A stretch of 64,000 nt of DNA from Thozetella sp. PMI_491 (lineage: Eukaryota; Ascomycota; Sordariomycetes; Chaetosphaeriales; Chaetosphaeriaceae). The DNA lies in assembly GCA_021432635.1 (NCBI GenBank), contig MU270040.1, positions 618,811 through 682,810 on the forward strand. The letters are read 5' to 3'. Positions 1,658-64,000 of this stretch are shown piece by piece. The position numbers and the translations under genes were made by a program. The notes beneath the pieces were generated by a model. The model ran no database searches and had not been told where the DNA came from. It saw only the letters and a program-made list of their open reading frames with translations. The stretch's first letter is position 1. Each line of letters begins with the position of its first letter.

Positions 1658-2129
1658 GGATATCCTCTTGGGTTCGAACCCGGTCGGCATCGGGGATGAT
1701 GTTACGGTGAGAGTATACCACGCTAGTTTGGTAAGGGATGCAGGGGAGGCTTGAGCATGTAGCCTCGCTAACAGGTGGCAGGGCGCCGGCGTTTGGGTGG
1801 AATAGGGAAAGTTGTGCACGCCTCGGGTTCTATACAGGAGCGACTGGAGTCGCTCTCGTTTTGTACGCCATCCAAAGTTGGTACTAGAAAAAAAAGTAGG
1901 GGTGACTGAGCCCAGCACCAGCAGAGTTGGCATATTTTCATGCCCTCATATCACATCACAAGCGAATAAGCTCTACTTTGTAGACTGGAATGTTTTGGTT
2001 CTTTTATCTCTCTGGCTAGCCAAGGCTCCTCAGCGGGATCTGGCGTCCCGTGCCATGAAGCTCTAGATGTAGCCCTCCAAGGTGAGCCAGCGGTGTTTTC
2101 CACCGTCGCACAGGCGACACCCGGTACGC
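1658..2129. other. Convergent intergenic region
   Basis: This is the shared 3' space of the nucleoporin (+) and uS10 (-) genes. No reading frame with coding character is seen. A B-box-like GGTTCGAACCC near 1,670 has no tRNA around it. Confidence 0.6.
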
Positions 2130-2535
2130 TTAAGCAGCAATGGTGACCTCAACCTCGACACCGGCCTCGATGTTAATGATGATCTGCTTGACAATCTCGG
2201 TCGGGGCGTTCAGGTCGATGACTAGGGTCCTGTCAGTGACGGCCACAGCTGGCTCGGCTGGGGGGGATAGACTTACGGCGCTTGTGGATGCGCATCTCGT
2301 ACAAATCCCAGGTCTTGGAACCCTCACCACAAGGGGTCTTACGGGTGGTGATCTTGAGGGTCTTGGTGGGCAGGCGGACGGGGCCCTTGACGCGGAGCTC
2401 CTTGGACTTGGCGCGCTCAATCAGCTCGGTGGTGACCTTCTCGAGGCTCTTGACGTTGCGGCTGGTGAGGGTGATGCGGATCTTGTGCGTCTTGGGCGCC
2501 TCGCCAAAGTCCTTGTCGGCCTTGTTGTACGACAT
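2130..2535 (-). CDS. rps20: 40S ribosomal protein S20 (uS10)
   Basis: Two exons on the minus strand: 2535-2277 and 2221-2130. The intron 2276-2222 begins GTAAGT and ends CCCTAG; splicing restores [17 protein letters not shown] exactly as in the family. The 116-aa product begins [12 protein letters not shown] and carries the uS10 signature [14 protein letters not shown], the [17 protein letters not shown] loop and the terminal [10 protein letters not shown]. uS10 sits in the head of the small ribosomal subunit. An earlier AG (GACAG, 2231-2235) would break the frame, so the CTAG acceptor is the right one. It is divergent from the Cue3-like gene with about 680 bp between start codons, so the two share an upstream region. 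Confidence 0.97.
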
Positions 2536-3216
2536 CTTGTCGGCTGTGGATGTGTTTTTGGTGGAAAGGTTATGTGGTTGTGAGTGGCAAGTCGGAGCGA
2601 GGTACCAACACGACTCGAACGGTCTGCAGAGGAATTGAGGTTAGTAAAGAACACGGCCTATCCGCTCGCGCGGCTCAGGGGAGTCGACTTGCCTGCTTGG
2701 GACGGCGTTTCGGCAAAGTGATGTTGGTGAGGTTCAGAGGAACAAGTTCGTGAGAGCCGCTCCTTTTTTTTTTTGGTGGGCTTGGTAGGGCTGGGCAAAA
2801 GTTTTGCGCACGGACCACATATGCCCCACCACGGCTGTGAAATCGCGAGGATCTGTGGCTGCACGGGCAGGGGGAGGGGAGTCAGCTTTCCTTAGCTTCA
2901 AGGCGCTTGGTGGGGTATGGATCATGATGACACACCCGGTGAAAGACTCACTTGGTTTGTGCCCGCAGTTGCAGGATCCCTGAGGCTTGCCAGGGGAGAG
3001 AGGTTTGTTTACAAAAGGGGAGGGGCTACAGCACTCGTTGGCGATTGGCACTGCAAGCTACCGACGCTTACAACTTGCTCGTCTATCCTTCGTTCTCTTC
3101 TATATTCCCGCTTGCTCGGCTGCCTAGCTAGACTTTAACACATTTGGACCTACATCTTGGCCCCTCACCCTGCCCCGCGAGCAGTTTAAAGAGCTCCTCA
3201 GGTAGCTCTTGCGAGA
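2536..3216. promoter_or_regulatory. Divergent promoter region of uS10 and Cue3-like genes
   Basis: The region lies between two start codons that point away from each other. It contains an 11-T run (2764-2774) and pyrimidine-rich stretches just upstream of the + gene, but no recognised reading frame. No specific factor site is claimed. Confidence 0.45.
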
Positions 3217-5255
3217 ATGGCTGACAGTCTGCCGGCCTTCGCGCCATTCCCCTCAGCAGCGTTGAGGGATCATATTCCTCCCGACGAGTGGATCGCCTGC
3301 CTGGATTCCTGGGTGACCCTTGTGGACGGACATCTCTCCCTTTCAGAGTCCAAATCCTCCGCCTCCCTCAAAGACGAGTCTCTACCCGTCTTCCTTGCTC
3401 TCTTCGTCGAGGAGACCGCCCGGGGTGGCGCCAACGTTCTTGGGTCATCTCCAGCGGCGAGGAAGCTCCTGAAGGACAGCTACCTGTTGGTACGTATTCT
3501 ACACGTAACGGTGCAGCCACTGCACCACGGCTCAGCCGGTTCAGGCCTAATGGGCTGCAGATAGCGAGACTTCTCCAGCAAAATGCGCCTCCTCGTGGGC
3601 TGGTGCAATGGGAGTTCTTATCTGATCTGAGCCACCTCTATGGCAAAAAGAGGGCCGAGGTGGTCCTCTCCTCTCTCTCCAAAGCCAGCCAAGCGAGTCT
3701 GGACTCATCCCTCGCGAGCCTTAAGAAGGACCTTATCAAGGATCTCGATGCTGGAATCAACGGTGACCTGAAGGCCGTCGAAGAGCGGCTAGATCGCATC
3801 AACCACCTGATCCATGTCTCCCCGCAGACAGCCGAGTTCTTTCTGGCCGGCAGCGACTTCCTCGACGGCCTGATAAACTGCTACAAGGTCATGAACCCCC
3901 CACTGAGGAAGGCCATCATCAGCATGACCTACCTCTGTCTCATCGGCCTGGTCGGAGATCAGTCGCCGAAGTTCTCCATGCTAACGGATCAGCTCTATTC
4001 GCTCAAGGCGGCAGCCGAGTCGCATAAGGCCGGCCCGCTGAACGCCAACGACTCGCTCGTCGCCGAGCTTGTCACAGCCACTCCTCTCATCCAGCAAGTC
4101 GAGCACAAGCTGGAGGCTGCAGGCTCGTCGACGACCAGGGCCAAGGGCATTCTGAAGGATCTTGCTGCTTTCCGGAAACCCGGCGGCATGCAGAAGCCAA
4201 AGAGATTCATCAAGCGGAAGATTGACAAGGGCAAGCGCGTCGAGCTGGTGGATCACTCTGCGATCCAACACGAGATGCACGTACATCGCATGAGCCAGAT
4301 TACTCAGGTCCAAGACTTGTTCCCCGAGCTTGGGTCTGGGTTTGTTTCCAAGCTCCTGGACGAATACGAGGATGATAACGAGCAAGTTATCGCTCATCTC
4401 CTGGACAATTCATTGCCTGCCCATCTTCAAGATGCCGACCGCAGCGAAGGGCTCGACACGGCAGAGCCGCCGCGCGACCTCGCGCCGCGCCCAACGCCCC
4501 CGCAGATGCCGACGCGCCGCAACGTATTCGATAATGACGAGCTGGACAGGCTCGACATGGACGTCTCTAAGCTCCACATCGGCAAGCGCGGCGCCGACCG
4601 CACTGCAGACGACGTGCTTGCGGACAGGTCTACCGCGCCGAACAAGGCCGCCATTCTCTCAGCCTTGGCCGCGTTCGACTCGGATGACGACGAGCGTGAC
4701 GATACGTATGATGCTGAGGACGTGGGCGGCACTGTAGATGCTGCGGCCGAGGATCTCTCCGAGGGCAGCGAAGAGACGCTCTTCCGTGCCTTCCAGAGCA
4801 ACCCAAAACTCTTCGATCGGGATCAAGCGACGAGGAAGGCAGCGACCCGCACGCGCCTGAAGGACGAGACTGGCATGACGGACGAGGCGATCGAGGGGTG
4901 GGCGTTGATGCTCTCACGCAACCCGGCGCAGCGGAAGAGGCTAGAGGCGCGATACAGCCAGTGGAGTGGCGAGCAGGTGGAGCTGGCCAGCACAGCCTGG
5001 CGCGCAAACGCAGATTCGGGCGCCGAGGACTCGGAGGCAGATGCCAACAGGCCCGCCTTCCGGGGAGGACGCGGCAGAGGCCGGGGGCATGGCCGGGGGG
5101 GCGGCCGCGGGGGCGGCGACGTCGCCGGGCCGACTGGGGAGCAGACTACCGAGACGGCGCGCCGGCGAAAGGAAGCTAGCAAGGGAAGCCGGGCGAACCA
5201 CAACCGCCGCGACCAGCGAGCGCGCAAGATGGCCAGAGGCGGGTTCCCCGGCTGA
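3217..5255 (+). CDS. CUE-domain protein, Cue3/ASCC2-like (RQT complex)
   Basis: Exons 3217-3489 and 3561-5255 are joined in phase 0 across a 71-nt intron (GTACGT...CTGCAG), giving 655 aa. The N-terminal half is helical (LPVFLALFVEET; QWEFLSDLSHLYGKKRAEV; INHLIHVSPQTAEFFLAG) and matches the ASCC2/Cue3 layout. A CUE ubiquitin-binding domain follows at about residues 335-385 (VQDLFPELGSGFV...QVIAHLLD). After it come an acidic linker and a Gly/Arg-rich tail with repeated RGRG near residues 590-605. Cue3/ASCC2 is a subunit of the RQT complex, with the Slh1/ASCC3 helicase, which splits ribosomes stalled on mRNA and recognises ubiquitinated ribosomes. The N-terminal exon and intron are firm from frame continuity. 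Assignment to this family rather than another CUE protein is from domain order and length. Confidence 0.82.
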
Positions 5256-5455
5256 GCGGAGCTTGGGCCGTGCCGGAAATCTCGTGGGACGCTCATCGGG
5301 TGATCAATGGGGCTGTATAATCATTTTAGATGTTCAACCTCGTGGCAGTGGCCTGAGTTCTACAAGCCTCGCACATGGATTGTATAGTATGAACTGCGCC
5401 ACCTCCGGCCCGGCGGTCTGCACGGCGCAACAGTCCACTAGGACCTCGCCAACTC

Positions 5456-6985
5456 CTATGCAATGCCCTGTGACGTCTGTGACTTCTTCTCTATCCTAAA
5501 TACCTCAAACTCAGCTCCGCTGTGTACCCGCTGAGCGTTCAAGTGATGCAGCTTTTCCCGATAATCGAAATCGGAGACGTAACATCCTTTCAGCCACCTC
5601 TCCCCCGTCGCCGTATTGAACTGATTCCGCCCATGCATGACACGCAGGTTGTCAAACACGACACATTCACCGGGCTTCATCTTGTACTCAAACATGTTTT
5701 CCGGCGCCGATATCTCGGCCTCCAGCTCCCGGGCCGCTTCCTTCCACTCCAGCAGTGCCTCCTCGTCCATTGAGCCGGCTATCGGGAGTTGGAACGAGCC
5801 CTGGAACGGCGGGGACCAGTTGACACGCTCCAGTCTTTGCTTTCCGTCCACCACTATGGTCGCGAGCTGCCGCCAGTAGCTATTCCCGTCCTTGTGGTAC
5901 TCAAAAGTCGGCTGCGCCTCCAGGAGGGCTTCGAATAGGTCGGGCTCCTCGCGGCGGAGCACTTCGGCGGCGCGAAAGGCATCTGCGAAGATCGACTCGC
6001 CACCGTCGCAGCTGTTGGCCAGGCAGTGGAGGAACTGGATGCGCGGCGAATTCGGGAGGTACATCAAGTCGGCGTGCAGGCCCAGGAACTGCGACGTGTA
6101 GGCGATATTCTCGGCGTTGGGCTTCGACACCACGTCGAATGTGCGTCCGTAGAAGGTCTCCTGGATGGGTCCCATCTGGGCCGCGATGTCCTCGACCGCC
6201 GTCTCCGAATGGGGCGCGCCCGTCACGAAGAGCAATCCTGTCTGCTGGAAGGCGTGCATGGCCTGCCAGAACGCCGGACCCCCCTCGGTCCAGTCTTGAA
6301 ACGACACCCGACACCGCGGCTGGAGCTCGGCGAACTCCTTCTGTGTCCACTCCACTGGCTTGATGTCCCGGAAGTCTCTCCTCGCGGCCGATGAGCTCAG
6401 CCCCGCTCGCCACCTCGATACCTCGGCAGCACTCCACGTCGAAACGTGCGAGCTTGCGCCGTGCGGTGCGCCGGGGCCCCACACTACCCTGAGAGATCCG
6501 TCCTCGCTGACCTCGGCGCTCTCGCACGCCGGGTTGTCCGGCACCACAGTGCTCGAGAAGGAGCGCTGGCCCGAGTCTGGATCTCGGCAGAGCGGGCATA
6601 GGCAGTGGTCGCGCAGCCAGAAGGCAGGCACATTGAGGATGCGCTGCTTCTGTTTGCCGTCTAGCTCTATTCTCAGTGACCCCTTCTCGTTGATTGCTTT
6701 GGATTCGATCGAGACGTGTTTCAGCTTCCAGTCATGACCGACTGGCTGGGCGGGCGTAGGTGTTCTTCTCGGCGTACTAGTTGGACGGGTGCCTACCGGG
6801 GTGGCCGCGTCCGAGTAGAAGCGCACATTGCCATGACGAGGTCGAGGGAGGGAGCATCGGTGAGGACGACGTGCTGCGAGGCTAAGATTCAAGCGTGAAG
6901 TGAGGAGACGAGCGATCGGGGCACCTGCCCGGCCAGACAGCATCATGAGGCCGGTGAACCAGAGGATGAGGAGCAGGTTTCGCAA
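5456..6985 (-). CDS. Gamma-butyrobetaine hydroxylase-like Fe(II)/2-oxoglutarate dioxygenase
   Basis: This is a single uninterrupted frame of up to 509 codons. The N-terminal zinc-binding domain typical of butyrobetaine/trimethyllysine hydroxylases has FWLRDHCLCPLCRD (Cys128, Cys130, Cys133). The TauD-like catalytic domain has the iron facial triad in LHADLMY (His304, Asp306) and VMHGRNQF (His451), with Arg453 for 2-oxoglutarate. Enzymes of this family hydroxylate gamma-butyrobetaine or trimethyllysine in carnitine synthesis. Start choice: Met14/Met15 (6946 or 6943) begins an Arg-rich, acid-free leader (MLSGRAGAPIARLLTSRLN) that looks like a mitochondrial presequence, so the first Met at 6985 may not be used. 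Which of the two carnitine steps it performs cannot be read from sequence alone. It is convergent with the Cue3-like gene, 200 bp away. Confidence 0.85.
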   Translation of the reverse strand: MRNLLLILWFTGLMMLSGRAGAPIARLLTSRLNLSLAARRPHRCSLPRPRHGNVRFYSDAATPVGTRPTSTPRRTPTPAQPVGHDWKLKHVSIESKAINEKGSLRIELDGKQKQRILNVPAFWLRDHCLCPLCRDPDSGQRSFSSTVVPDNPACESAEVSEDGSLRVVWGPGAPHGASSHVSTWSAAEVSRWRAGLSSSAARRDFRDIKPVEWTQKEFAELQPRCRVSFQDWTEGGPAFWQAMHAFQQTGLLFVTGAPHSETAVEDIAAQMGPIQETFYGRTFDVVSKPNAENIAYTSQFLGLHADLMYLPNSPRIQFLHCLANSCDGGESIFADAFRAAEVLRREEPDLFEALLEAQPTFEYHKDGNSYWRQLATIVVDGKQRLERVNWSPPFQGSFQLPIAGSMDEEALLEWKEAARELEAEISAPENMFEYKMKPGECVVFDNLRVMHGRNQFNTATGERWLKGCYVSDFDYREKLHHLNAQRVHSGAEFEVFRIEKKSQTSQGIA

Positions 6986-7498
6986 GGGCGACGGCCAATT
7001 GCGACAGCTCGAGGGGATGGACGCAACTCCGACGCTTTCTGGGAAGCGGGAGGCGGGCGGGCGGGCGGCGCAGATTCAACGGCCCTTGTACTCGTGCATG
7101 TGATGGGCCGGACGGAGGGAAGCTTGAGTATGGCGTGCGGTGGATGAGGGGAGCTAAGGCCGACGAAGGTGGGGGAGCTTTGGAGCTCTGTTGCCTCGGG
7201 TCGGGACCCCGCCATTCTCATACGACTCCCCCACCTCTGACGGCTGAAGCCACTACGGAGTAGGTACCGGAGCGACCTAAGCGCCGCTGAATAAAGGCGC
7301 CCCCTGGCAATTCTAGGCAGGAGTCAGCACTTTATCTACAGGACCAACAGCCCTTCGGCACTCAAGTGCAGCTTTGACTATAATCAGAAGCAGGCAGCAC
7401 AACGTTGCCACGGAGCATGTTTCACGTATTCGCTGACTTTCTTTTTCTTCTTTCCTTGTTCTTAACTCTTATTTTATTTACATGGTTGTCTCGGAGGC
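6986..7498. other. Intergenic region
   Basis: This is upstream of the dioxygenase gene and downstream of the NmrA-like gene, both on minus. No coding frame is seen; the right part (7430-7485) is T/C-rich. Confidence 0.5.
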
Positions 7499-8530
7499 CT
7501 AAGCACTGCGAGACTGGAGGTAATCCCTGACCGCAGCACGGAGGTCGGTGTGGGGAAGCCCTAGAAGCTTGTTGCTCATCTGCTCCTCCTTGAGCGCGTG
7601 GTTCTGCCCATCGCGGAAGTTGAAGATTGTCAGGAAGTTCAGGAAGGCGCTGTGGTCGCCCTTGGCCAGCTTCTCGCGGCCGTCCTTCTCGATGTCAGCG
7701 GTGCTAACGCGCGTCACGTCGAACTTGGTGCCCGTCTCCTCCTCGAAGGCCTTGAGCAGCTGGTTCTGCGTGGTGGTGAGCTCGACCACCTCGAGATACT
7801 TGTTGGCCGTCTCGGCCTCGTGTTGCAGCACTGCCACCACCGCCTTGCCGACGTAGGGCAGTGATGTGGCTGAGAAAGGCTCATCGCCGGAGTCCATGAT
7901 CCGTGCTGTCTTGTCCTTGGGATTAATGCCCAAGCTGCCGTAATCCAGCCCCTGAATTCGGGCATTAGAATCCACTGGCATTGCTACATGAAATTCCAGT
8001 AAGAAGAGAACTCACCCAATCGAAAAAGAGGCTCGTTGTGATGCCAGTATAAGTCAGGCTCGGGTTCTCCTTCGCTTTCTCCATGACATAATCCATCGCC
8101 ACCTTCTTGCCCGATATCATGGCGCTCAGGGTGGGATCCGGGTTTGTGCGTGTGTTATGGCCGAACTCAGAGGGGATAAGCCTCTTCACGCCTGCCGCCA
8201 CCGCGGCATCTGCGATGGGGTTCTGGCTGCTCAGGGCCGCCACGGTCCCGACTGTGGACACGACCGCATCTTGGCCCGCGAAGGCGGCCGTGAGCGACGG
8301 AACGGAGGCCTCATCGGCCTTGCGCACTGCAACGCCAGAAGGGAAGGTTGACGTGGAAGACTCCCGAGTGACAGCTGTGACGTTGAAGCCAGCCGCCAGA
8401 AGGGCCTTGACGACTTCCTTGCCGACGCTGCCAGAAGCCTAGCAGAGAGGTGTGTTAACCGACGATATCTGCAGAATTAGAAGCTATAGGAAGCACTCAC
8501 GCCAATAACGGCAACGTTCTTGATAGCCAT
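7499..8530 (-). CDS. NmrA-like / isoflavone-reductase-like NAD(P)-binding protein
   Basis: Three exons on minus: 8530-8501, 8438-8016 and 7951-7499, with introns 8500-8439 and 8015-7952, both starting GTGAGT. The 301-aa product opens MAIKNVAVIG and, across intron 1, completes the Rossmann glycine motif GASGSVG. It continues with GVKRLIPSEFGHN, a conserved block of the isoflavone reductase/NmrA family, and a C-terminal half ending in YLQSRSA. Members are atypical short-chain dehydrogenases; some reduce phenylpropanoid-type substrates, others (NmrA) only bind dinucleotide. I cannot tell which applies. The first exon codes for only ten residues, so open-frame searches miss the true start and the glycine motif. 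Confidence 0.88.
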
Positions 8531-27699: not shown

Positions 27700-29960
27700 T
27701 CAAGACGGAGCGTCCAGCGGCTTCCTCCCGTATACGACGTGAAAGGGGTAGTACGTGTGAAACTTGCTGTCCATGACGGCCTTGCGCACGTCCATGAGGA
27801 AGATCTCGATCTGCAACGGCGTCCAGCTCAGGCCAGTAGCCAGGGGCCGCTGAGCGAAACCGCGCAGACCGTCCATGACGGCGGTCCGTAGGAACAGGCC
27901 ACACAGGCGGAGGCGCTTGTCGCGCGGCCACACGCCGAGGGGACACTTGTGCGACACAGCCTGAATGTCCTCGAAGCCAGCTTCGGCCAGCTTTTCGCGG
28001 ATGTTCAGGATGGCGTGCAGCTCGGAGCCCAACGCACGCATTCCCTGTTCTAGGTATTGCAAGAAGGCCCGCCAGGCATAGGGCGTCTCAGGTGTCAGGG
28101 AGTCGTCGTCGCAGTGCGCCCAGTACTCCAGCTCTTGGATCTCGATGTAACCGCCAGGCTTGAGATGGCTGCAATGGGTGTCAGTCGCCCTAGAGGTAGT
28201 AATCATGGCTACTGCCACTCTCCTCCTGCACCCGCGCCTTTAGAAGCACTTACGTGTAGGCCTGCTTAAGCACTCCTTTGATATCTCGTATGGAGTGGAG
28301 CACATGTCGGATGTGGATGTAGTCGAATTTGTCGCCCTGGTCTACCCACTCCTCCTCAATGTCGTCGATGAAGAAGTGCACGTTCTCGGGTACGTAGTTG
28401 GGCTGAATCGGCGAGAGGTCGAGGCCGGTGATCTCTGTCGCTGGGTACTTGTCGCCTACTACACGGCGAGGAACACACGGGTTAGCCACCACAACTTAGT
28501 CATGCAAGAGAGGACAGAGAATCAAATCCGTCGCGCCACGTTTCGACCCCTAGAGAGAGCGCTGAGCTGGCCCGCGAACCGGAGGCTGACTGTAGGCAGG
28601 AGAAANNNNNNNNNNNNNNNNNNNNNNNNNNNNNNNNNNNNNNNNNNNNNNNNNNNNNNNNNNNNNNNNNNNNNNNNNNNNNNNNNNNNNNNNNNNNNNN
28701 NNNNNNNNNNNNNNNNNNNNNNCCCCCCCCCCCCCCCCCCAAAGAAATGCCGTTCCAGGCGTCCGACTGGCCCGGATTGGAGCGCTGATGTGCCACAAGG
28801 ACGCCCAGCGCGCCAAGGTGCCTCAAACGGCGGTCCTGCCGTCTGGCTGACGATGCGGCGGCGGCACAGATCGACGCTTAGAATGGAATAAGCCACTTAC
28901 ACTCAATCGCCCAAATCCCAGTTCCCGTTCCTGTTCGTGGGTAACACAGATCAGCATCTTGTCTCAGTGCTATGCGACAGCAACGACTACACAGCTAGCC
29001 GCCGCAAACAGTCGCCGGAAGACTGCTGCTCGGCTGGAAGGAGCCAACTTTGGCCGATCCCTCCCCCGTCCAGCAGCATGTTAGGTCCTGGGATACTGCA
29101 GGCCAGCGTTGCGACGTGGCTATCAGGCGTCGTCATTGGCCAGCCCGACGCCATTTTGTCGGTGCATCCGGTGGCAGCATCGGTTGGCTTCCGCGGTCGC
29201 TAAGAAAGTTGCCACGTTCTTCGTAACGAAGAGCGACCTCGCTTCTAGCAAGGAGCGCCTCGCCCCCCTCGCCCTAGGCACCAAGCACCCCGCGGCACCC
29301 AACCAGTCCCGGTCGGACGGTGCTGTGTTGACCTGCAGCAGGCGGCTAACCGCGCCAGCGGTTCCCTCTAAGCCGTGGATTCGGAGTGTAGTCGCGGAGG
29401 TGGGCGAGGAATGTCGTCGCGAGAGAAAATGGGCCAGGAGGCAACTTAAAGCAAGAGAAGGAAAGCGGCAAGAACATACCTAAGTCTAGCACTTGGGCCC
29501 CGGCCTGGAGCCGTTCCTCGATGGGGGCATAAAAGTACTTGCCCCTAGATAGTATGAGGCACATGGTGTGCTTCATGTCGTCTCGGTTCTGCTCGACCTC
29601 GTCGTTGGGGAATGCATACCGTCCGTCTCGGAAGGCGTGGTATCGCAAGCCGCCTTCGTAGACGTGCGCGCGCACCGACGACGTCATGGAGCTGGGATAC
29701 TTTTCCATGTCGGTCTCAAACGAAAAAGTCTCTCCGGTCCCCGACGAGTTGGTATCCCGTGTGCTGATGCGGGAATGTGAAGATTGGGATTGTTGGCTGG
29801 ACGTGGGCGAGGTTGCGTTCCCCGGCACCCGCAGCGGCAGATGTTCGAGCTCGCCAACGGCGGCGTACAGCTCCTCCTCGGACTCTGTCCCGACCGCCAT
29901 GTCGGTCGAGGATGACGAGGGCGAGAGGCGAGAGGCGCCATCAGGTTGGTCTGTGGACAT
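27700..29960 (-). CDS. LaeA-like SAM-dependent methyltransferase
   Basis: Four exons on minus: 29960-29480, 28930-28901 (only 30 nt), 28458-28254 and 28168-27700. Splicing gives 394 aa and recreates the SAM-binding motif VLDLGTGTGIWAIE (residues 157-170), which spans exons 1-2. ITGLDLSPIQPNYVPENVHF, the post-I/II motifs DKFDYIHIRHV and HLKPGGYIEIQE, and the distal YPFHVVYGRKP follow. The first 90 residues are Ser/Thr-rich and acidic. LaeA and LaeA-like (Llm) proteins regulate secondary metabolism and development. This family is large in Sordariomycetes, so it is called LaeA-like, not LaeA. Introns 1 (549 nt) and 2 (442 nt, with an assembly gap) are long for this genome. The microexon was chosen because it alone supplies GTGIWAIE. 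Confidence 0.85.
28606..28722. other. Assembly gap (117 N) beside an 18-C run
   Basis: Bases 28606-28722 are unknown and are followed directly by 18 C (28723-28740). The gap lies within intron 2 of the LaeA-like gene, so the coding sequence is unaffected. The neighbouring homopolymer suggests the true sequence is a longer G/C tract that defeated assembly. Confidence 0.95.
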
Positions 29961-39693: not shown

Positions 39694-41434
39694 GGCGAAC
39701 TACCATCGACACGGCGGGTATGAAGAAGGAAAACCCAGATCGCGCGCAGCGATGATCGGTTTTTTTGGGAGAGGTTTTTTTTTTTTTTTTACGTCCACCA
39801 TCCCGTCTTCCAGGGCCCGCTGACTAGTCGTTTCACGGGGAAGCTGAACAGCTTAGCAAGGATGGCACCAGGTCGCACCGGGGCCCCCGGCTGAAGGCGA
39901 CTGCCTACTCTGGTGCGCAACTGCGGGCCTATCGGCGCCTTTACAGCGCCGGCAATCACTGGTGCCAAGGTGACGGAACAGGGTCTAGATGTCTATTTAC
40001 GGGATCGGGCGGGGATCATTCGCTCCACAACACAGATCTAGTGTCGCTCAGCCTCGTTGAGTCCCCTCCTTAACATTTTATTTCGTTGCATCAGATCCCA
40101 CTTAATAGCACATTCTAACCACAGTCCCCTATTCCCCTGCGACTTCCCTGCGATCTAGCTCCTGGGAATTCTCGAGCTCGGTGTAAGTAAGCTCCTTGAC
40201 TAGTAGTAACTGACATGACCGAGATAGCTTACCATATCGCTCAAACAATTTAGAGCTGTTCTTCTCCGTAATAGAGGGGATGCTCACAATAGGTATGAGA
40301 CGAGTTGTTCTGCTCCCGCGTAATTCTCTGCAGCGACGGTAATTGCCTTTGTACTCAAGGTAGAGGCCAGAGACAAGAATCCATCTTGGCATTAAGTCTT
40401 TATGCCGATGCTTGTCGCCTCTCAATCGTGTTGACTCTCTGCATCTGAGACAACTCCCCAGGATTCGATATATCCTCTGAGAATCTGGTCATAAAGAAGC
40501 CTATCAGGGGCGTATGCGTTTCCCGTGATCATTGCTATACAGCCGTTTGCTTGGTCCGCCACTTTGCTGTTTTTCGGATTTTCTGTCGTCTAAGACGGTG
40601 CGATGGGCTAGAGGAGACTTTAGAGAAGCCGATGGTTTGACGAGATGTCTACCTCTACCGTCTTGACCTGCAGCTTGACCGCAAGTCTCTAGTTCCTCTA
40701 GGCGAAACTTTTCGAAAGCGGTCCAATAACTATCTGGACGCAAGTTGTGAGAGGGCCGCTATGAGTTCGGCAGAAGGCGCACATATCAATTTCCTTGCCT
40801 CGTTGCTAGACTGCTGCTCCTAACTTGGTCAAGACTGAATCGATTGACACGCCTTGGCAAATTATAATCGTCTGGGCGAAACTTCTGGGCGAAACTTCAT
40901 GTCTCGCCGATAAAGAATTCACGGACTAGCTGTTTAACCTCGGTGCTATTACAGGTTTCTAGGATTCTCAAAATCTAGGCATTATGTTGCGTAGGATTGG
41001 TTAGCAAGTTGTTCCATTGAGGGTGTCCCATAGTGGACGATCGTGGATAAAGAGGCCCGAAGAGAGTCCGGTGTTTCGAAACTGAGAAAAGCCAGGGTGC
41101 TAATACTACACGTCAGCGCTGTTGAGGATTTTCACAGACCCAAGATAGCAAGAGAGAGTTAGAGCTGTCGACTAATCGTGCAAATGAAGGCAGTTGATAC
41201 ATAGCCAGCACCTTCTATTTAACGGCCAAGTTTCTTCAATGACGACGGCGGTGTCGCACTACCGGGGCAAGCCCTGGGCAATAGTCCAGACTCTGGAAGC
41301 TATACTTAAATGTGCCGATTGCATGCGATAATAGCCGACAGACTGTCGCATTGCCTATCCACATTCATTCTATTTATAGATAATTGGCTTGTTTTCGGTA
41401 TAGAACCGAGATGATTCGCATGGGGTGTCAAGTT
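39694..41434. other. Transition to the repeat island
   Basis: This is the upstream region of the membrane-protein gene, with T16 at 39775-39790, followed by A/T-richer sequence. It includes the degenerate reading frame listed separately (40129-40764). Otherwise nothing is recognised. Confidence 0.45.
40129..40764 (-). pseudogene. Degenerate reading frame, unknown protein
   Basis: One minus-strand frame carries coding-like sequence over more than 200 codons, interrupted by TGA, TAG and TGA near 40,480-40,506. Recognisable stretches are SYWTAFEKFRLEELETCG and SITEKNSSKLFERYGKLSRS. The same frame seems to continue upstream toward about 41,000 with further stops (RPDDYNLPRRVNRFSLDQV). TGA in place of CGA fits RIP. 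I do not recognise the protein; position and damage suggest a transposon relic. Confidence 0.35.
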
Positions 41435-41583
41435 GGCGAGGTGGCCGAGTGGTTAAGGCGATGCCCTGCTACAGGAAGAGTAGTGAGAGAGGCATTGGGT
41501 TCGCCCGCGCGTGTTCGAAGTATGTCATTATGAAAACTCAAGTCCTCACAAATGTTGACCCATGAATAGTCACGTCCTCGTCG
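41435..41583 (+). tRNA. tRNA-Ser(GCU) gene with intron, broken in the T-loop
   Basis: The acceptor GGCGAGG (41435-41441) pairs with CCTCGTC (41576-41582). A serine-type D-arm follows (GGCCGAGTGGTTAAGGC). The anticodon stem is ATGCC/GGCAT, and the loop reads CT-GCT-A, then an 18-nt canonical-position intron (41472-41489), then A. GTAG in the intron pairs with CTAC at the anticodon, as pre-tRNA-Ser introns do. A long variable arm (GGGTTCGCCC) follows. The T-arm is split: GCGTG-TTCGAA, then 50 foreign bases (41520-41569, GTATGT...GAATAG), then T-CACGT. Removing the 50 bases restores a regular T-arm. Seven T (41602-41608) would end Pol III transcription. As it stands this is a pseudogene, or a gene with an unprecedented second insertion. 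Confidence 0.7.
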
Positions 41584-42844
41584 AAGAGAGGCTGCTCAAT
41601 CTTTTTTTACGTCCTTTTTTGTACCTCCCGAGCTCCCTCCGCTTTCCAAGGTAATAATAACAGAAGATTACGCTTGTCATTGCCCATTGATTAAAATGAA
41701 TCACCGTAGTAACTAGCTGTTAACGTTGAATACTATAGAAACTCGTCACCGTGCAAACAAACATCGTACGTTAACGAGATATATAGCTAGGGCACCATCT
41801 ATATTTGATATTTGGTCTTTTGTGCCATATCATCACGTGATACATGGCCTGTGCTCTATGTTAACCGCCCCAGCGGCGAAAATCAAATATGCGCCGCATT
41901 GATGCTAGTCGGTATCTATCCCTGAAACTAATATCTGCTCTCTTGCTCTATTTTTTTTTTTGGCTCTTTTGCAACTTTTTGACGGCCAGAGTTCATGTAA
42001 CATGTTTTTAAAAGCAGATTTTGCGAACTCAATACCTATTTAGTAGAATAATGTTACTACTAGAAGATCTCATCCAAAGAAGATATTCACCCCTACGCTC
42101 CACCATTCCCTAGCATGCCGCCGTGTATATCCCTGATGACCTTATTCTCACCCGGTCTCGTCCACCGGCGCTCTGTTTTCAGCTCACCTTTGACGTCACG
42201 AGCGAGTTTTTCTTCTTGCCTGGCATACCTACGACCCCCTCCGCTGTGCAAGTCATAATCACACCCTAGGGTAGTCTTAGCCCCTTCCCTCCCAAAGCCC
42301 CTTCCATTTCTTCCAAGCTGTAGGTTGAGTACGGAGAGGTCCAGATCAAGGCCACCCAGGGGGCAAGCGGTGCACTCGGGGTCAGTAGTACCGGGCGGAT
42401 GTGTGCGGTTAGTGAATAGGTTGGCGCCGAGACGGTCAAGATGAAGTGTCTACAAAAGCCGTACACTCTCTGCTGAAGCATGCACCCCAGCCTGGTTAAT
42501 ACCAACCCTTGTATATCCCGAAGGCGAGATATAATGGGAAGAAAACCTATTAGGAGGGAAAAGGATGCTGTTGTTTAAAGACAAAGTTATCGGGAAATTG
42601 CGGCGGAAGAAGAGTCTCCTTCGTAGTATCGCACTACACTCTCTAATAGCGTCAAACCGAAACCGAGTTTTCTAGGGAAAAAAGTGTTGGGTATAAAGAG
42701 AGGAAACTGTCTATACGCATGTTAACAGGGTCGAGGTAGCTCTTGAAGGAGAATCTCGCTGTCTTCTGTAGGTCTTCTAAAGTCTTAGAAAGGCTTATAT
42801 TTGCTCGTTTAGAGGAGGCGAGTAGTTGGTAAGGATGTACGGTG
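41584..42844. other. A/T-rich spacer
   Basis: Apart from the oligo-T just after the tRNA, no gene is supported. The first ~100 bases are shared, in a RIP-mutated version, with sequence downstream of 44,000, so they belong to the duplicated tRNA segment. Confidence 0.4.
41602..41608 (+). terminator. Pol III-type oligo-T terminator
   Basis: Seven consecutive T lie 18 bases after the tRNA-Ser 3' end, the usual place for RNA polymerase III termination. Confidence 0.5.
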
Positions 42845-43273
42845 TTAGAGGCGTGTGCTACCTATAAGAAGGCTCCGACGGCCAGAAATGACATCTTGGT
42901 GATAAAATCGATTGCCGGAAGGATCGCCGTCGAACTCATCAACTCTAATCTTCCTAGCCATTTTCCCAGCTAAGCTGAGCTCGGGATTTATGCGAAATCT
43001 TCCATGCAAGTCACTCTTAAAGTCATACTGAAGGCTGTTTTCGAAGCCAGTGTTAGATGCGTTACCGAGGCTTCTATTGAAGCTGGTCCCGTAGTTGCGT
43101 AGGAAATTGACTCCTGAGCCAGGGTTGAAGCCACTTCCGAAGTCGTGGGCAAAGCCGTTTCCGACCCCATTGAAGCTACTTCCAAGGGCCCAGTTGAAGC
43201 CATGTCCGAAGTCACCTCCGAATCATTCGTCGAAACCACCGCGAAACCCATGGCTATTAAAGTTGTTCAACAT
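42845..43273 (-). pseudogene. Gly/Phe/Asn-rich reading frame with one internal stop
   Basis: The frame starts MLNNFNSHGFRGGFDE at 43273, meets TGA at 43225-43223 (GAA-TGA-TTC, fitting CGA to TGA) and then stays open to TAA at 42847-42845, 142 codons in all. After the stop it is a repeat-like run of FG/GFN/SFN units (FGGDFGHGFN, GSSFNGVGNGF, DFGSGFNPGSG) with period near 8-10 residues, then a different C-terminal part (KIRVDEFDGDPSGNRFYHQD). No family is recognised. A single RIP-type stop suggests a recently broken gene or domesticated fragment. Confidence 0.4.
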
Positions 43274-43879
43274 TGTACACTGAACTTTAAGCTCGGCCTA
43301 TGAATTGACACGGCGGGGAGCGGCGCGGGTTGCATTGGAAGTAGTGTCAAAGTTAATTTATTCAGGAAAGGCAGGGAATATAGGGTCATTGGGCTAAATA
43401 GGCGGTCTGAAGACGACTTGCCTCTTACATCACTTGCACAACTAGAGATGCACAGCGCGTCTGTCCGCCTACTGCGACTCGTCCAAGCCCCTCTCACGCC
43501 CAGAGCACACACCTGACCAAGGCTAGTTTTCACAGCATAGGCGCCGCATAGCCAGCGCGAATAACGCCCAGACTAGAATACTTGTCAAGTCGAGGAGCTA
43601 GCGGGCTATAGAGCTGTCGTCTTGGTCGCGTGCGAGGGTTGATGACTGGATTATCCTTATCACTAAAATAGTGGCGCTACAAAGGCGTGTGTAAACGGAA
43701 CACCACTGCTACTCAGGGCCACCGCCTACTTGAAAATAGCTAAGCAAGTAAATTAAATACCTTGAAATCATCCAGCGAGAAAATAATTTACATATATAAT
43801 AGGGACCCTTGAAAATCGACAAGCACTGGATTCGGCCATGCCTAATGCTCGTAGTTTGGAAATCTGCCGAAAGATTTAT
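43274..43879. other. Spacer within the repeat island
   Basis: No coding frame or repeat could be recognised. Confidence 0.35.
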
Positions 43880-43944
43880 CGACGAGGACGTGATTCGAAC
43901 ACGCGCGGGCGAACCCAGTGCCTTTCTTACCATTTTTCCTATAG
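43880..43944 (-). pseudogene. 3' half of tRNA-Ser(GCU), uninterrupted T-arm
   Basis: On minus, starting inside the anticodon loop (CTATAGG), the sequence runs through a diverged intron, GGCAC, the same variable arm GGGTTCGCCC, and an intact GCGTG-TTCGAAT-CACGT T-arm. It ends with acceptor CCTCGTC plus G. No 5' half precedes it; instead it abuts, head to head, another copy starting at the same base. Confidence 0.65.
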
Positions 43945-44146
43945 CTATAGGAAAAGTAGTGAGAGAGGTATTAGGTTTGCCTATATATATTTGAAGTATA
44001 TTATTTTACAAATACAACTCCTTATAAATAGTTATACTCTTGTTAAATAAAAAGTTACTTAATCTTTTTTAAAATCTTTTTTTAGTACCTTTTAAGCTTC
44101 CTTGCTTTTTAAGTTAATAATTATAAGAGATTATCCTTAATATTAT
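43945..44146 (+). pseudogene. RIP-mutated copy of the broken tRNA-Ser segment
   Basis: The segment starts CTATAGGAAAAGTAGTGAGAG and follows the 41,470-41,675 sequence base for base with many C-to-T and some G-to-A changes. It includes the 50-bp T-loop insert and the downstream oligo-T and TTTCCAAGGTAATAATAA-like stretch (here TTTTTAAGTTAATAATTA). It ends where the LTR at 44147 begins. Confidence 0.6.
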
Positions 44147-44438
44147 TGTCATGGCCGCTAGCCCTGACCATAGATCAGACCACCTGTTGCGAGCTTTACG
44201 AGCAGATGGCCGCAGCTGCCCAGCCATTGATCTCTGTATGGCCACGTACACCAAGATCGTGGACAGCAGAGGAGCTGTGGGCGCCCAGAGGCCCTAGCTC
44301 CCTGGATATACCCCTGATCAGAGCTGGGGAGCAGCTTCGCTGTCTCCTCTTCCCTGATCTCCATCTTAGAGTCTTTTAGTCTATTTCTAGAGTATGGTCA
44401 ACCAGTCCCGTACTGCGCCAGTGATCCTCGCCGTGACA
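44147..44438 (+). repeat. LTR (292 bp), TGTCA...TGACA family
   Basis: It begins TGTCATGGCCGC and ends CTCGCCGTGACA, with perfect 5-bp inverted ends as in LTR retrotransposons. A second copy lies inverted at 50362-50669. It is GC-normal, so little RIP is visible. No internal retroelement sequence follows, so this is a solo LTR or fragment; the flanking 5-mers (ATTAT/CCAAC) do not match, which suggests a rearranged right or left side. Confidence 0.7.
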
Positions 44439-45856: not shown

Positions 45857-48799
45857 ATGCGAAGACGTGCAATGAAAGATTTGGTTCGTCCCGACATTGC
45901 CGCTCGTTTGATGCTCGTTCAACATTTCCAGCCTGTGTTTCCGTGTCCGCTTGCGCTCTCATGCATGATAGTATTGGACCGTTTCGACAACCAGCAACCT
46001 TCGTCCTTTGGCTTCGTCTTGTACCTCTACATTCGACATCGGGGGTTTTCTCTTGTGGAATTCCTCATGCGCCGACTAGATAGCCTGTGTCCTGGGGTTG
46101 TCCCTTGTGGACATCCTCACCACCGACTAGATAGCCTGCCTCCTGAACTTGTCCCTTGTGGACTTCTTCACCGTCGAACTGATAGCCTGTGTCCTGGGGT
46201 TGTCCCTTGTGGACATCCTCACCACCGACTAGATAGCCTGCCTCCTGAACTTGTCCCTTGTGGACTTCTTCACCGTCGAACTGATAGCCTGCCTCCTGAG
46301 GTTGTCCCTTGTGGACTTCTTCATCGTCTACCAAACAGCCTGCCCCCTGAGGTCGTCCCTCGTGGACCTCCTCACACGCTTAGTAGAAAGGATCCCTATC
46401 GAGGCTGTCCCTTGTGGACTCCCTCACACTCCGCCGCCAATATGACAGACCCCCAGGGGGATAGGCATGCTTCATTCACTCTCGGCATCTGCTATTCTGA
46501 TGACATTGCTAATACAAACTGCAGAAAGGTTCATGCTACCGGTTCTACGGGTGAGATCCATGGCGATGGCACAGCCATGGAGAAATTCTTACAGCGGTTT
46601 CCGTCCGGATACCAGCGTATCCCTACGTCTGGAGAACAGAACCTCTGCGGCCTTCGGGCATTGATAGGAAGTATGGACGCTCAGGGCTTCGCCCGCGTAC
46701 CGACACTGTCGGACCTGCAAGACATCGCCACTAGCACCCCGATGGTGGAGTTTGAACAGGAGATATGCGGTGCACTCGATGCCCCTAGGTCGCTGAATGA
46801 CTCTTTCTACGTCGACCAGCTCGCCGCCATCATTCGCCTGTGGGGAGATTTGCACGACATGGACCTGCAGCTGGGCTACGTCCTACAAGGCGGTGATGTT
46901 TTCCTGGTGCCCGGGCCGACGACCACGGAGACAAGAACCATCTGGATCGTCTCCTCAAGTACATCCGGAAGAGAAGCTGATTTCCTCGACCATTACGAAG
47001 GAATCGCTCCAGCGTCAGATGTCGCCCCCTCTCTCTCTCGCTCCCATCGCCACGCAAAACGTACGTGTTCATTCTCTCCCCTCCAGACATGCATTCTGAC
47101 CAGACCATGTCTAGGCCGCAGTCATTCTCCAGACCAGACGCAAGCTAAGAGACTCCGCACCTGTCAATCTACTAGTCGGTCTGTGACGCCTCCGGGAGCG
47201 ACCAAAATTCCCATGCCTTGGCTCGATCGTCCCAGGACGCCAACTCTGCCCTACGCTGCAGGGCCCTTCAGTCAAGGACCGCCGGACCCGCTAACCCGCA
47301 CAGAGGAGGTGCAAGCCATACCCGTGCCTTTTCCCGCCCCAGCACCGACGACCCCACAGCTGGCGCGCCTTGCAAAGAGAGACGGGGATCTATACGACCG
47401 AGCCTGGCGAGCCCTGTTGTCGGCCTGCGAGTCTTTTGTCCAGGACGCCCCGTCCCATCAAAACCCCTTCCAGTACCGCCCTTGCCCTCCTAACTACACC
47501 GACGCCCCCGATTTCTCCCAGTACGACATCGACGGGCTCATGCAGAAGCTTCGTGGCCCCAGCTTCCACAAAGTCGTCCATGTTGGGGAATACCTGCTGT
47601 GGGCCGACGCCATCAAGGACCTCTTCTGCGCTGCCTACCGTAAATGGCGACCCCGTCCCTTCCCCAGCACGCGTCCTTGGAACATAATGGCACGCATCAA
47701 GGAAAAGGTATCGGGACTCCCTCCAGGGAATGAAAGGTACACCAGGTACTTCCAAGACCACTCCCTCGAAGAACTCGTCCGCCGCCTGCTCTCAGAGTCT
47801 GAAGTAGCCAGCCTTTTGTTCAGTGGCGAACATGGCTGCCGAGAAGCTCTAGAGGCACGGGCTCGAGATGCCATTGAGCATAGGGGCCCGGGATGGTACC
47901 TTGGTCTCATGACGCGTCCCGAGGATGTCGATTTCTGGATGAAGTACGTCGGCCAGAGCAACAAGGAGAAGGGTGGCGTGCGGACCCGTACGACGGAACA
48001 CAAGAATGCCGCAAACAACAAGTATAGGAACACGATGCTGTACCACTTCTGGAAACTCCAGAAAACGCGCACCATGCGCTGGATTCTGCTTGGCCGCCTG
48101 GGAGGCCATGATGAGTCTGCTGAGGACAGGCAAACATGGTTCAACATCGTTGAAATGTTTTACGCCCTCGCCTTCCAGACCCTCACCGAGAAGGATCTAG
48201 AGTCCTGGCTTCCGCAGAGCGACCTCCTCCAGCAACCACACCGCGGCCTCAATGTACGACTGCCATTATACCAGGGCCAAACTGTCTCCCACGGTTGGAC
48301 TTTCGGACTCCAGAATGTCCTCCGTTCTAACGACCCTGAGCAAGTCAAATGGGCCAGTAGCAGGATCAAGGAGATTGGGGACAAAGGTCGCGAAAACGCC
48401 TGGCAAAGCCAGAATCAGCATACAAGTGATTGGACGGCGCCTTTACAGTGGAAACAATTATCTCATACTATGTTTGCGAGATACGGCCGCACGGACATCA
48501 TACGCGAATGGCAGGAGGGCGACCCGGAAAATATCCCGATTATATGCTCAAACTGCAAAGATCCAAGGTCAATACGCATCGACAGCCATCCCAAGTTTGA
48601 GATAAGCAGCGGCAAATATGTCGCCATGGCCCAACACTGCCTAGTGTGCCCCCCAGGTCGAGTAGGCGATAGACAAGGGTTTTACACGCATATTCTAGCT
48701 TGTGAGCTGGATCGTGGCCAAATCAGTAGGTGGAGTGTTGGTAGGAAGTCAATAAGGGCTAGGACACGTCAGGAGCGCTCGGATGCCGATGAAAACTAG
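45857..48799 (+). CDS. OTU-like protease / GIY-YIG nuclease-like / zinc-site fusion protein
   Basis: The open frame has 980 codons. I place the likely start at ATG 46442, after the 51-bp repeats; the longer frame has no recognisable domain before it. A probable in-frame intron lies at 47061-47114 (GTACGT...CTGAC...TCTAG, 54 nt), leaving 767 aa. Domains, spliced numbering from 46442: an OTU-like fold with Cys69 in GEQNLCGLRAL and His184 in DHYEGIAP, with LQLGYVLQGG between; then a GIY-YIG-like domain with GWY (466-468), KYVGQS (Tyr484), Arg496 in RTRTTEHK and Glu553 in NIVEMFYAL; then CSNC (684-687) and CLVC (715-718). It has no signal peptide or TM helix. It is GC-normal and undamaged amid RIP-mutated repeats. 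The domain calls are pattern-based. A deubiquitinase-nuclease combination is my inference. Confidence 0.68.
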   Translation: MRRRAMKDLVRPDIAARLMLVQHFQPVFPCPLALSCMIVLDRFDNQQPSSFGFVLYLYIRHRGFSLVEFLMRRLDSLCPGVVPCGHPHHRLDSLPPELVPCGLLHRRTDSLCPGVVPCGHPHHRLDSLPPELVPCGLLHRRTDSLPPEVVPCGLLHRLPNSLPPEVVPRGPPHTLSRKDPYRGCPLWTPSHSAANMTDPQGDRHASFTLGICYSDDIANTNCRKVHATGSTGEIHGDGTAMEKFLQRFPSGYQRIPTSGEQNLCGLRALIGSMDAQGFARVPTLSDLQDIATSTPMVEFEQEICGALDAPRSLNDSFYVDQLAAIIRLWGDLHDMDLQLGYVLQGGDVFLVPGPTTTETRTIWIVSSSTSGREADFLDHYEGIAPASDVAPSLSRSHRHAKRTCSFSPLQTCILTRPCLGRSHSPDQTQAKRLRTCQSTSRSVTPPGATKIPMPWLDRPRTPTLPYAAGPFSQGPPDPLTRTEEVQAIPVPFPAPAPTTPQLARLAKRDGDLYDRAWRALLSACESFVQDAPSHQNPFQYRPCPPNYTDAPDFSQYDIDGLMQKLRGPSFHKVVHVGEYLLWADAIKDLFCAAYRKWRPRPFPSTRPWNIMARIKEKVSGLPPGNERYTRYFQDHSLEELVRRLLSESEVASLLFSGEHGCREALEARARDAIEHRGPGWYLGLMTRPEDVDFWMKYVGQSNKEKGGVRTRTTEHKNAANNKYRNTMLYHFWKLQKTRTMRWILLGRLGGHDESAEDRQTWFNIVEMFYALAFQTLTEKDLESWLPQSDLLQQPHRGLNVRLPLYQGQTVSHGWTFGLQNVLRSNDPEQVKWASSRIKEIGDKGRENAWQSQNQHTSDWTAPLQWKQLSHTMFARYGRTDIIREWQEGDPENIPIICSNCKDPRSIRIDSHPKFEISSGKYVAMAQHCLVCPPGRVGDRQGFYTHILACELDRGQISRWSVGRKSIRARTRQERSDADEN
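46074..46379. repeat. 51-bp tandem repeat, about six units
   Basis: Six 51-bp units (46074, 46125, 46176, 46227, 46278 and 46329), plus degenerate half-units on both sides, share CTTGTGGAC and a CTCCTGA-type core. Odd and even units differ, giving a 102-bp higher-order pattern. As 51 is a multiple of three, both strands stay open: plus reads RLDSLCPGVVPCGHPHH, minus reads GGEDVHKGQPQDTGYLV. Confidence 0.9.
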
Positions 48800-50342: not shown

Positions 50343-50770
50343 GAATGAACTTCTTTCTTTCTGTCACGGCGAGGATCACTGGCGCAGTACGAGATTGGTT
50401 GACCATACTCTGGTAGTTGACTAAAAGACTCCAAGACAGAGATCAGGGAAGAGAACGCAGCAAAGCTGCTCCCCAGCTCTGATCAGGGGTATATCTAGGG
50501 AGCTAGGGCCTCTGGGCGCCCACAGCTCCTCTGCTGTCCATGATCTTGGTGTACGTAGCCGTATAGAGATTAATAGCTGGGCAGCTACTGGGCAGCTGGG
50601 GCCATCTGCTCGTTCCGTACAGCTCGCAGCAGGTGGTCCGATCAGTGGTCAGGGTCAGCGGCCATGACACTTTCCCGAAGTCTTCAGAGCAAGTTTCTGG
50701 AAAGCTGTATTTTGACCTTTAAACTAGTATCACAGGGCTTTGCCCCATTATTTATACTATGATCAGGGCC
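50343..50770. repeat. Direct repeat, copy 2, interrupted by a solo LTR
   Basis: 50343-50361 and 50670-50770 together match 49764-49882. The break falls at CTTTC, the target site of the solo LTR, so the uninserted copy serves as the empty site. Sequence 50,100-50,340 reads on plus as a degraded frame (FKKIIKKTFKHLDPVQNEDA) of unknown, probably retroelement, origin. Confidence 0.65.
50362..50669 (-). repeat. Solo LTR (308 bp) with 5-bp target duplication
   Basis: It is the same family as 44147-44438, in reverse orientation, with TGTCA/TGACA ends. CTTTC occurs immediately on both sides (50357-50361 and 50670-50674), a perfect target-site duplication. It is longer than the other copy mainly through a duplicated GCTGCCCAG-type segment. 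The ATG-bearing open frame that crosses its left edge is spurious. Confidence 0.88.
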
Positions 50771-50778
50771 TTGTCAAC

Positions 50779-51200
50779 TGTTACAACACTAAGATCCTAA
50801 GGTCAGTATTCTCAATGAGTAGGGGGTTCTTTCCTAAGGTAGGGAGGGTAGAGACGAGTGGAGCATCAATCAACTAAGGGGTGTAGAATCTAAAGCATAA
50901 GCTAAGGTAGCTTAAATAGATTAATTGCTAAAGAGTAAAGGCTAACTGATCTATCTAGGTAGAGACTGTGGTCTTATATACTAAGTTGCTCTTTATAGCT
51001 CACTAGGCTCATTATGGTGATCCAAGTGATCTGGAGCGCTGGGCTCACTATGGTGATCCAAGTGATCCTTCCTGATTAGCTAAGCATCTGTATAGATGCC
51101 TGAGGCATCTATTAGGGGTTCTGCCCTTGTTAACTACTGCCTCGAGGCACTAGGCCCTGTTGGTGGTTGCGGGGAGGTGACTGATGCCTTAATCGTAATA
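50779..51200 (-). repeat. Gypsy LTR 1 (422 bp), outer 3' LTR
   Basis: Read on plus it runs TGTTACAACACTAAG to TTAATCGTAATA. It contains an internal direct duplication of TATGGTGATCCAAGTGATC. It keeps many CpG and CpA and is clearly less mutated than LTRs 2-4. Confidence 0.85.
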
Positions 51201-63670: not shown

Positions 63671-64000
63671 TGTTGGTTCAATACTAGGATCCCATTCCTG
63701 GGGTAAAACAAAGGGCTAAAACTGGTTCATACTGTTGGTCTGGTCTTCTCTGTGTATCTGGTGGAAAGCAGTCTAGGAGCTCCAGAGAGCTCTTAAATAG
63801 CTTCCATCTTGATCACGTGGTTGCTCCCCACGTGGCTCCCATGGAGCTTCCAGCTTCCATATCCACAGCGAGCGAGCGCTGCGAATCTACTGTTCCAACA
63901 CTGGCTCTTTTTCTCTTTCGCTGCGCTCGCTCGAGCGGTCATCAGCTGCTTGCCAGTGCTGGCTTTCCCACTCTATATATGCTCTTCCGAGCTCTCCGGT
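63671..64000 (+). mobile_element. Start of a fresh, GC-normal repeat (probable LTR), cut by window end
   Basis: At about 63,671 the A/T-saturated element stops and GC-normal sequence begins TGTTGGTTCAATACTAGG. It holds CACGTGG twice (near 63,815-63,840), an inverted repeat of CGAGCGAGCGC with GCGCTCGCTCG spanning about 63,866-63,940, and TATATATGC near the end. A TG start at an abrupt junction within a retroelement suggests an LTR; the other end is not in view. Confidence 0.45.

Follow-up and report, generated by a model that had tools for sequence, protein, structure and literature searches.

Peptidase domains of the OTU type are known to be joined to separate effector or enzyme halves in bacterial and viral proteins. 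Within polymorphic toxins they have been considered as possible auto-processing peptidases (PMC3482391), and vOTU domains have been proposed to detach parts of viral polymerases (PMC11071308). Effector domains have likewise been described for the NOD-like receptors (NLRs) of fungi, and a word search of the main text of that account finds neither 'OTU' nor 'nuclease' (PMC9815663). Here, we describe a gene of Thozetella sp. PMI_491 that encodes a papain-like (OTU/UCH-like) cysteine-protease-like domain followed by a GIY-YIG-like region and a putative zinc knuckle. The gene lies within a stretch of 64,000 nucleotides (GenBank assembly GCA_021432635.1, contig MU270040.1, positions 618,811 to 682,810, forward strand), hereafter the window, on the contig designated C26 among the 157 contigs of the 72.3-Mb genome. 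An OTU-like/GIY-YIG-like fusion was not found described in the full-text literature, among the matches listed. We present evidence that the gene is single-copy, that its N-terminal domain is shared with two other loci at which it precedes different partners, and that it sits at the boundary of a block of repeats.

The gene consists of a single forward-strand frame of 785 codons closed by its own stop codon (Table 1). A preliminary description of this DNA had claimed an intact frame carrying a series of motifs, and both parts of that claim are borne out: NLCGL begins at residue 67 (with Cys69), DHYEGI at 183 (His184), GWY spans 484-486, and YVGQS, RTRTTEH, NIVEMF (Glu571), CSNC and CLVC begin at 502, 514, 568, 702 and 733, respectively, in a frame that exceeds the longest open run, 304 codons, obtained when its sequence was shuffled 2000 times inside blocks of 99 nt. 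The residue numbers given earlier need correction, as Tyr484, Arg496 and Glu553 are Tyr502, Arg514 and Glu571 in the open frame. The earlier numbers run exactly 18 below those used here, and 18 codons is the length of a candidate in-frame 54-nt intron (GTACGT...CTGAC...TAG), one of three candidates from a pattern scan. The gene frame has a coding score of 0.116 bits per codon; the other two forward frames score -0.115 and -0.187, and the three opposite-strand frames of the region 0.045, -0.091 and -0.222. Scores for six further frames in the window range from 0.33 to 0.87; they are inflated because the codon reference table was derived from those very frames. Two of the eight codon-score blocks of the gene fall below zero (47042-47341 and the last block, from 48542), and its G+C content at third codon positions (GC3) is 0.62, versus 0.67-0.93 in the six other frames.

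The same frame stays open further upstream, to position 45857, through a 51-bp tandem repeat across which it is the sole open frame of the three forward ones. The resulting reading of 980 amino acids was rejected, its codon statistics being poor and a 51-bp unit easily keeping one frame open. Because the codon statistics of the upstream extension look non-coding, Met 46442 is the likelier start, and the extension is more likely to be leader sequence. If translated, the repeat array would encode a 17-residue repeat.

Six places in the genome match the protein, and the match is full-length only at the gene itself. The N-terminal domain alone is matched on contigs C2 (locus L002, E 1.2e-13) and C17 (L005, E 2.4e-4), and the back half alone on C4 (E 5.9e-8) and C116 (E 6.9e-7); a match on C33 (E 0.045), which contains a stop, was dropped as chance. 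When used as queries in turn, the C17 and C2 domains recover each other and the window gene, the former returning four places, of which one was dropped (E 0.22), and the latter three. Both back-half relatives are altered. The C4 relative (L032, 4356-5066, minus strand) lacks the segment holding GIY and YIG and has a Val aligned to Glu571, and at C116 (L033, around 63728-63986) the second match holds two stops, the relic being 51% identical over residues 682-718 (37 residues) and spanning the first CxxC only. These decayed relatives of the back half point to gain and loss.

What follows the shared N-terminal domain differs from locus to locus. At C2 it precedes, in the same frame, a Clr5 domain (E 2.5e-13), downstream of which lies an ankyrin-rich frame; a divergent frame of 844 amino acids at this locus carries HET (E 3.2e-15) and NACHT (E 3.4e-14) domains. 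At C17 the domain lies in a 763-aa frame, and a single in-frame stop separates this from a following helicase-like frame of 506 amino acids. The latter scores just over the cut-off for AAA_12 (E 3.3e-6) and short of it for AAA_11 (E 6.3e-5); its match to a helicase model of the IGHMBP2 family (E 2.5e-7) stays far below the curated cut-off of that model. The stop between the two frames is located at the end of an in-frame sequence of 72 nt that could be an intron (GTAACA...CTGAAT...TAG). We infer that the C2 and C17 loci would each make one protein. The occurrence of the same N-terminal domain with three different followers suggests a small modular family of this fungus.

Alignment of the three domains (window gene, C2 and C17) yields 28 invariant columns, Cys69 and His184 among them. 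These two residues lie 115 positions apart, within NLCGLRAL and DHYEGI. The order of Cys and His, their separation, the aromatic residue after the His and the one-domain size are, by eye, all shared with the OTU family (PF02338), and an OTU-type motif pattern, written post hoc, matched none of 40000 shuffles. The canonical OTU protein of the same genome, which is OTUD6-like and was recovered with PF02338, has DGHCLFAA and EHYNSL at the corresponding positions, so that HYEGI here parallels HYNSL there, whereas NxCGLxAL departs from DGHCLFAA. OTU enzymes have a conserved Asn or Asp at position +2 from the catalytic His. That position is occupied by Glu, Ser and Ser in the three paralogs, with the consequence that the standard OTU triad is not visible.

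This and several other results weigh against an assignment to the OTU family. Pfam returned no family at E <= 10 for either the whole protein or the N-terminal segment, and hhalign and hmmsearch comparisons with a six-sequence set of canonical OTU domains scored no better than shuffles (hhalign probability 0.1%). A single-sequence AlphaFold2 model of the domain had a mean predicted local distance difference test score (pLDDT) of 44.1, too poor to use, and Foldseek found nothing with it at E <= 1e-3, weaker matches being disregarded. PADLOC gave no family for the OTU-like segment, the C2 frame or the C-terminal part. In the PDB, a profile built from the three domains matched at E <= 10 only two sequences, both of YUH1 (E 0.56-0.57), a member of the UCH family whose Cys motif, NLCGLRALIGSM, is similar to NACGLYAILHSL of the window protein. 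This match is partial, being confined to profile positions 40-103 with no match over the whole UCH domain, and when a 62-residue piece of YUH1 was compared by hhalign, 14 columns aligned with a probability of 53%. The UCH family has a shorter Cys-His spacing than this domain. Because the OTU tests failed and the Cys motif is equally near to that of UCH, we name the domain papain-like (OTU/UCH-like), likening it by motif to cysteine proteases, and refrain from assigning it to the OTU family. The OTU-like label of the preliminary description is retained because Cys and His are suitably ordered and spaced and are conserved across three paralogs; it was not confirmed by the profile, PDB and model tests.

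In the back half of the protein GWY, YVG, Arg514/516, His520 and Glu571 follow one another in the order expected of GIY-YIG nucleases. A strict GIY-YIG pattern was matched by 3 of 40000 shuffles and a loose one by 2021, both patterns having been written after the protein had been viewed, from the family motif, in part as described in PMC1564403. The whole protein matches PDLC04921, a PADLOC model of the candidate-defense family PDC-S14, over residues 482-528 (E 0.0059), and the segment 441-634 matches it over residues 482-529 (E 7.9e-4); none of seven control versions of the GIY-YIG-like segment, one reversed and six shuffled, matches PADLOC. In its own genome PDLC04921 lists one place, the window gene (E 0.208). 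Two GIY-YIG segments of SLX1 weakly match the sister models PDLC04925 and PDLC04923 (E 0.012-0.038). The profile positions involved, 64-106, are near the 48-90 matched by the window protein, each counted in the numbering of its own model. On these grounds residues 484-575 are assigned as GIY-YIG-like with moderate support. In addition, the C-terminal CxxC-27-CxxC motif could bind zinc.

Against this assignment stands the fact that PDC-S14 is taken here to be a GIY-YIG family solely through the two weak SLX1 matches to its sister models. The genome search with PDLC04921 did not list the SLX1 of the genome; among 14 control genomes the same model had matches in one and PF01541 in 12. Neither half of the protein was recognised by name in Pfam, NCBIfam or the PDB, and the nuclease-like half did not match PF01541; the families listed by PHROGs have no known function and E values of 0.29 or more. 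Searches by hhalign and hmmsearch with a small set of SLX1 sequences performed no better than with shuffled sequence, PADLOC found no match for the C4 relative, and the single-sequence AlphaFold2 model of this half (pLDDT 43.4) was too poor to use, with no Foldseek hit at E <= 1e-3. The GIY-YIG-like half proposed earlier thus stands by its motif order, the PDC-S14 match and the seven negative controls, and finds no confirmation in Pfam, NCBIfam, PDB, SLX1-profile or model tests. It further differs from described GIY-YIG nucleases in being fused to a protease-like half. A canonical SLX1 is encoded separately in the genome, its segment being closest to PDB 6seh, a structure from a species of Sordariales. 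Elsewhere on the contig of the window, at C26:207189-207287 (L018), there is a weak partial match to PF01541 with a stop (E 0.044).

The preliminary description had placed the gene inside an island of repeat-induced point mutation (RIP), with mutated repeats on both sides. Repeats do flank the gene and a RIP-damaged block lies to its right, but the gene is at the edge of this block, not inside it. RIP-like damage, together with Clr5, HET and Fungal_trans_2 domains, marks the genome as fungal. Scored in 1-kb bins, the composite RIP index runs between -0.29 and 0.28 in the 40-46 kb interval. The three bins covering the gene have -0.41, -0.38 and -0.43. To the right of the gene the index is 0.53 (49-50 kb), then -0.01 (50-51 kb), and it lies between 0.88 and 1.56 beyond 51 kb. 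For the gene frame itself it is -0.55, within the spread of five other frames of the window (-0.27 to -0.81), and the gene shows, as had been proposed, no RIP signature. The left flank (40000-44000) has few matches elsewhere in the genome, each of about 115 bp or less among the best candidates scored. The left-hand repeat is one 292-bp element resembling a long terminal repeat (LTR), and the right-hand repeats start near 49.66 kb. The family of the 292-bp element occupies at least 40 further places (the best 40 of 59 candidates, some of them fragments of one copy), which include five direct-orientation pairs about 7.1 kb apart. Given these pairs and the 5-bp duplication of the right copy, the flanking repeats are LTR-type insertions, and the pair of inverted 225-nt arms that surrounds the gene was rejected as the termini of a DNA transposon. 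By the RIP profile and the positions of these insertions, the gene borders a repeat block, and no single element visibly encloses it. The two inverse LTR-like elements that flank the gene could promote inversion of the segment between them.

Table 1. Features of the gene, its surroundings and the two loci that share its N-terminal domain. Positions are those of the window unless a locus is named.
Feature	Position	Strand	Basis or remark
Gene, 785 codons plus stop	46442..48799	+	open frame
OTU-like / papain-like cysteine-protease-like domain, residues 40-190	46559..47011	+	paralogous domains, alignment; no Pfam match
Cys69 codon, putative nucleophile	46646..46648	+	identical in all three aligned domains
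His184 codon, putative general base	46991..46993	+	invariant in 3 of 3 paralogous domains
Candidate 54-nt spliceosomal intron	47061..47114	+	pattern scan
GIY-YIG-like region, residues 484-575 (GWY, YVG, R, H, Glu571)	47891..48166	+	PADLOC PDC-S14, motif test, seven controls
Putative zinc knuckle CxxC-27-CxxC, residues 702-736	48545..48649	+	motif; C116 relic
51-bp tandem repeat, 7.5 copies	46044..46427	+	upstream of gene, open in the frame of the gene
LTR-like element, 292 bp (TGTCA...TGACA)	44147..44438	+	left flank, no target-site duplication seen
Inverse copy of 292-bp LTR-like element	50362..50669	-	right flank, own 5-bp flanking repeat CTTTC
LTR (~420 bp) of a ~7.3-kb retroelement family	50779..51199	+	start of RIP-damaged block
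C2 locus: OTU-like/Clr5/ankyrin frames and divergent HET-NACHT NLR-type gene	L030 (G000:C2:904500-914000) 3427-7702 and 162-2693
C17 locus: OTU-like and IGHMBP2-like helicase frames, one phase	L031 (G000:C17:801500-811000) 1693-5502	-

An Rfam scan of the window returned no family. The window contains 117 N, and a run of unknown bases near 28.6 kb falls inside the frame 28295-28891.

The reading we tentatively prefer, while giving it somewhat less than an even chance, is that the gene is a single-copy host gene of the modular family described above, whose product would be a protease-regulated nuclease acting in conflict or defense. In this scheme, members of the family would share the N-terminal papain-like protease domain and differ in an exchangeable back half, which here would combine a GIY-YIG-like nuclease with a zinc knuckle of four cysteines behind it and elsewhere would be Clr5/ankyrin or a superfamily 1 helicase. 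The protease half would control the back half, either by self-cutting that frees the nuclease or, alternatively, by removing ubiquitin-type tags from its own protein or a partner. The nuclease, once freed or activated, would nick DNA bound through the zinc knuckle, and the protein would serve as an effector against mobile DNA, viruses or non-self. We infer catalysis, processing, a DNA substrate and a defense role for the window protein; the OTU domains noted above as possible auto-processing enzymes are precedents by analogy, not homology. A role in conflict or defense is consistent with the sharing of modules and the decayed relatives, and these two features, together with the HET-NACHT neighbor of the C2 sibling, fit gene families of fast turnover.

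Other readings can be drawn from the same evidence. A deubiquitinase half that reads marks at stalled forks or lesions, joined to a GIY-YIG half that processes DNA in the manner of SLX1, would constitute a genome-maintenance nuclease. Repair nucleases are indeed found among the GIY-YIG enzymes, as stated in the accessible part of PMC1564403, and the IGHMBP2/UPF1-like helicase frame of the C17 sibling is compatible with nucleic-acid maintenance; we nevertheless consider this unlikely, as the GC3 of the gene lies below that of the six other frames, its location is a repeat boundary, its back-half relatives are decayed and the genome already has a canonical SLX1. Decay of the relatives also bears on the view that the gene itself is lineage-specific and on its way out, an open but non-functional frame in which the motifs persist as remnants. 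Its codon bias is weaker than that of the six window frames (which supplied the reference table), two of its eight blocks score below zero, and two back-half relatives are already broken or altered. Yet 785 stop-free codons, the retention of all motif residues and a clean intron-like sequence make such an end state quite improbable.

An origin in a mobile element, whether Helitron/Helentron, Penelope-like, Starship or other, would make the gene a cargo or remnant reading frame and both halves enzymes of the element. OTU and endonuclease domains do occur in Helentrons and GIY-YIG domains in Penelope-like elements, as far as the available parts of PMC6431247 and PMC5148889 describe, and the gene adjoins retroelement repeats. 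However, the genome holds no close copies of it, and the frame matches no Pfam family of any kind and accordingly contains no Rep, helicase or reverse transcriptase. The inverted repeats on the two sides of the gene represent insertions of LTR type, and one of them carries a 5-bp duplication of its own. Seven matches to the captain family lie on contigs C12, C74, C28 and C22 and none on C26. Cargo of a Starship was rejected, there being no DUF3435 captain match on C26, though a captain may have gone undetected. We regard a mobile-element origin as a poor prospect. Of the possibilities raised in the preliminary description, cargo of a large mobile element gains little support from a contig without a DUF3435 match, and a simple transposon reading frame, named there as an outcome that would refute its view, is not supported by a sequence without close copies in the genome. 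A viral, phage or prokaryotic origin was also rejected, as IMG/VR, GTDB and phage tblastn searches yielded no confirmed relatives, the IMG/VR and GTDB contig scans being pattern-based, so that distant relatives would escape them.

Of the broader implications of a host gene with a protease-regulated back half, one is that the three loci represent a new fungal conflict family, a papain-like protease chassis with exchangeable effector or sensor halves, possibly partnered with NLRs; we think this rather doubtful at present. That such a chassis family would resemble protease-processed polymorphic effectors, operating inside the fungal cell, we hold to be just as doubtful. If the sharing of modules holds in other fungi, it would define a protease-based effector family comparable to the N-terminal domains of NLRs and also to the polymorphic toxins of bacteria, and its nuclease member would be open to direct testing. 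It would also give a name to a domain unrecognised by the curated libraries tried (Pfam, NCBIfam and PHROGs). Should the gene prove a lineage-specific oddity, it would still document an OTU-like/GIY-YIG-like fusion.

The gene can be set beside three described systems. With polymorphic toxins and polinton-type viral polymerases it has in common that a peptidase-like domain of OTU type is fused to a distinct half with an effector or enzyme role; those systems are bacterial or viral, and our IMG/VR, GTDB and phage scans found no match to the window protein. With Helentrons, as portrayed in the accessible portions of PMC6431247 and PMC5148889, it shares the presence of OTU-type and nuclease domains in one protein, although there the protein belongs to a mobile element and the endonuclease is AP-type, whereas here the nuclease-like region is GIY-YIG-like in a frame without Rep or helicase and without multiple copies. 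The third comparison is with fungal NLR and Clr5-ankyrin genes. Apart from the HET-NACHT gene neighboring the C2 paralog, no NACHT or NB-ARC domain was found in the scanned frames of the window gene and its paralogs, and in this they differ from NLRs; they resemble these genes in having exchangeable N-terminal and back halves, and the C2 paralog adjoins a gene of the HET-NACHT type.

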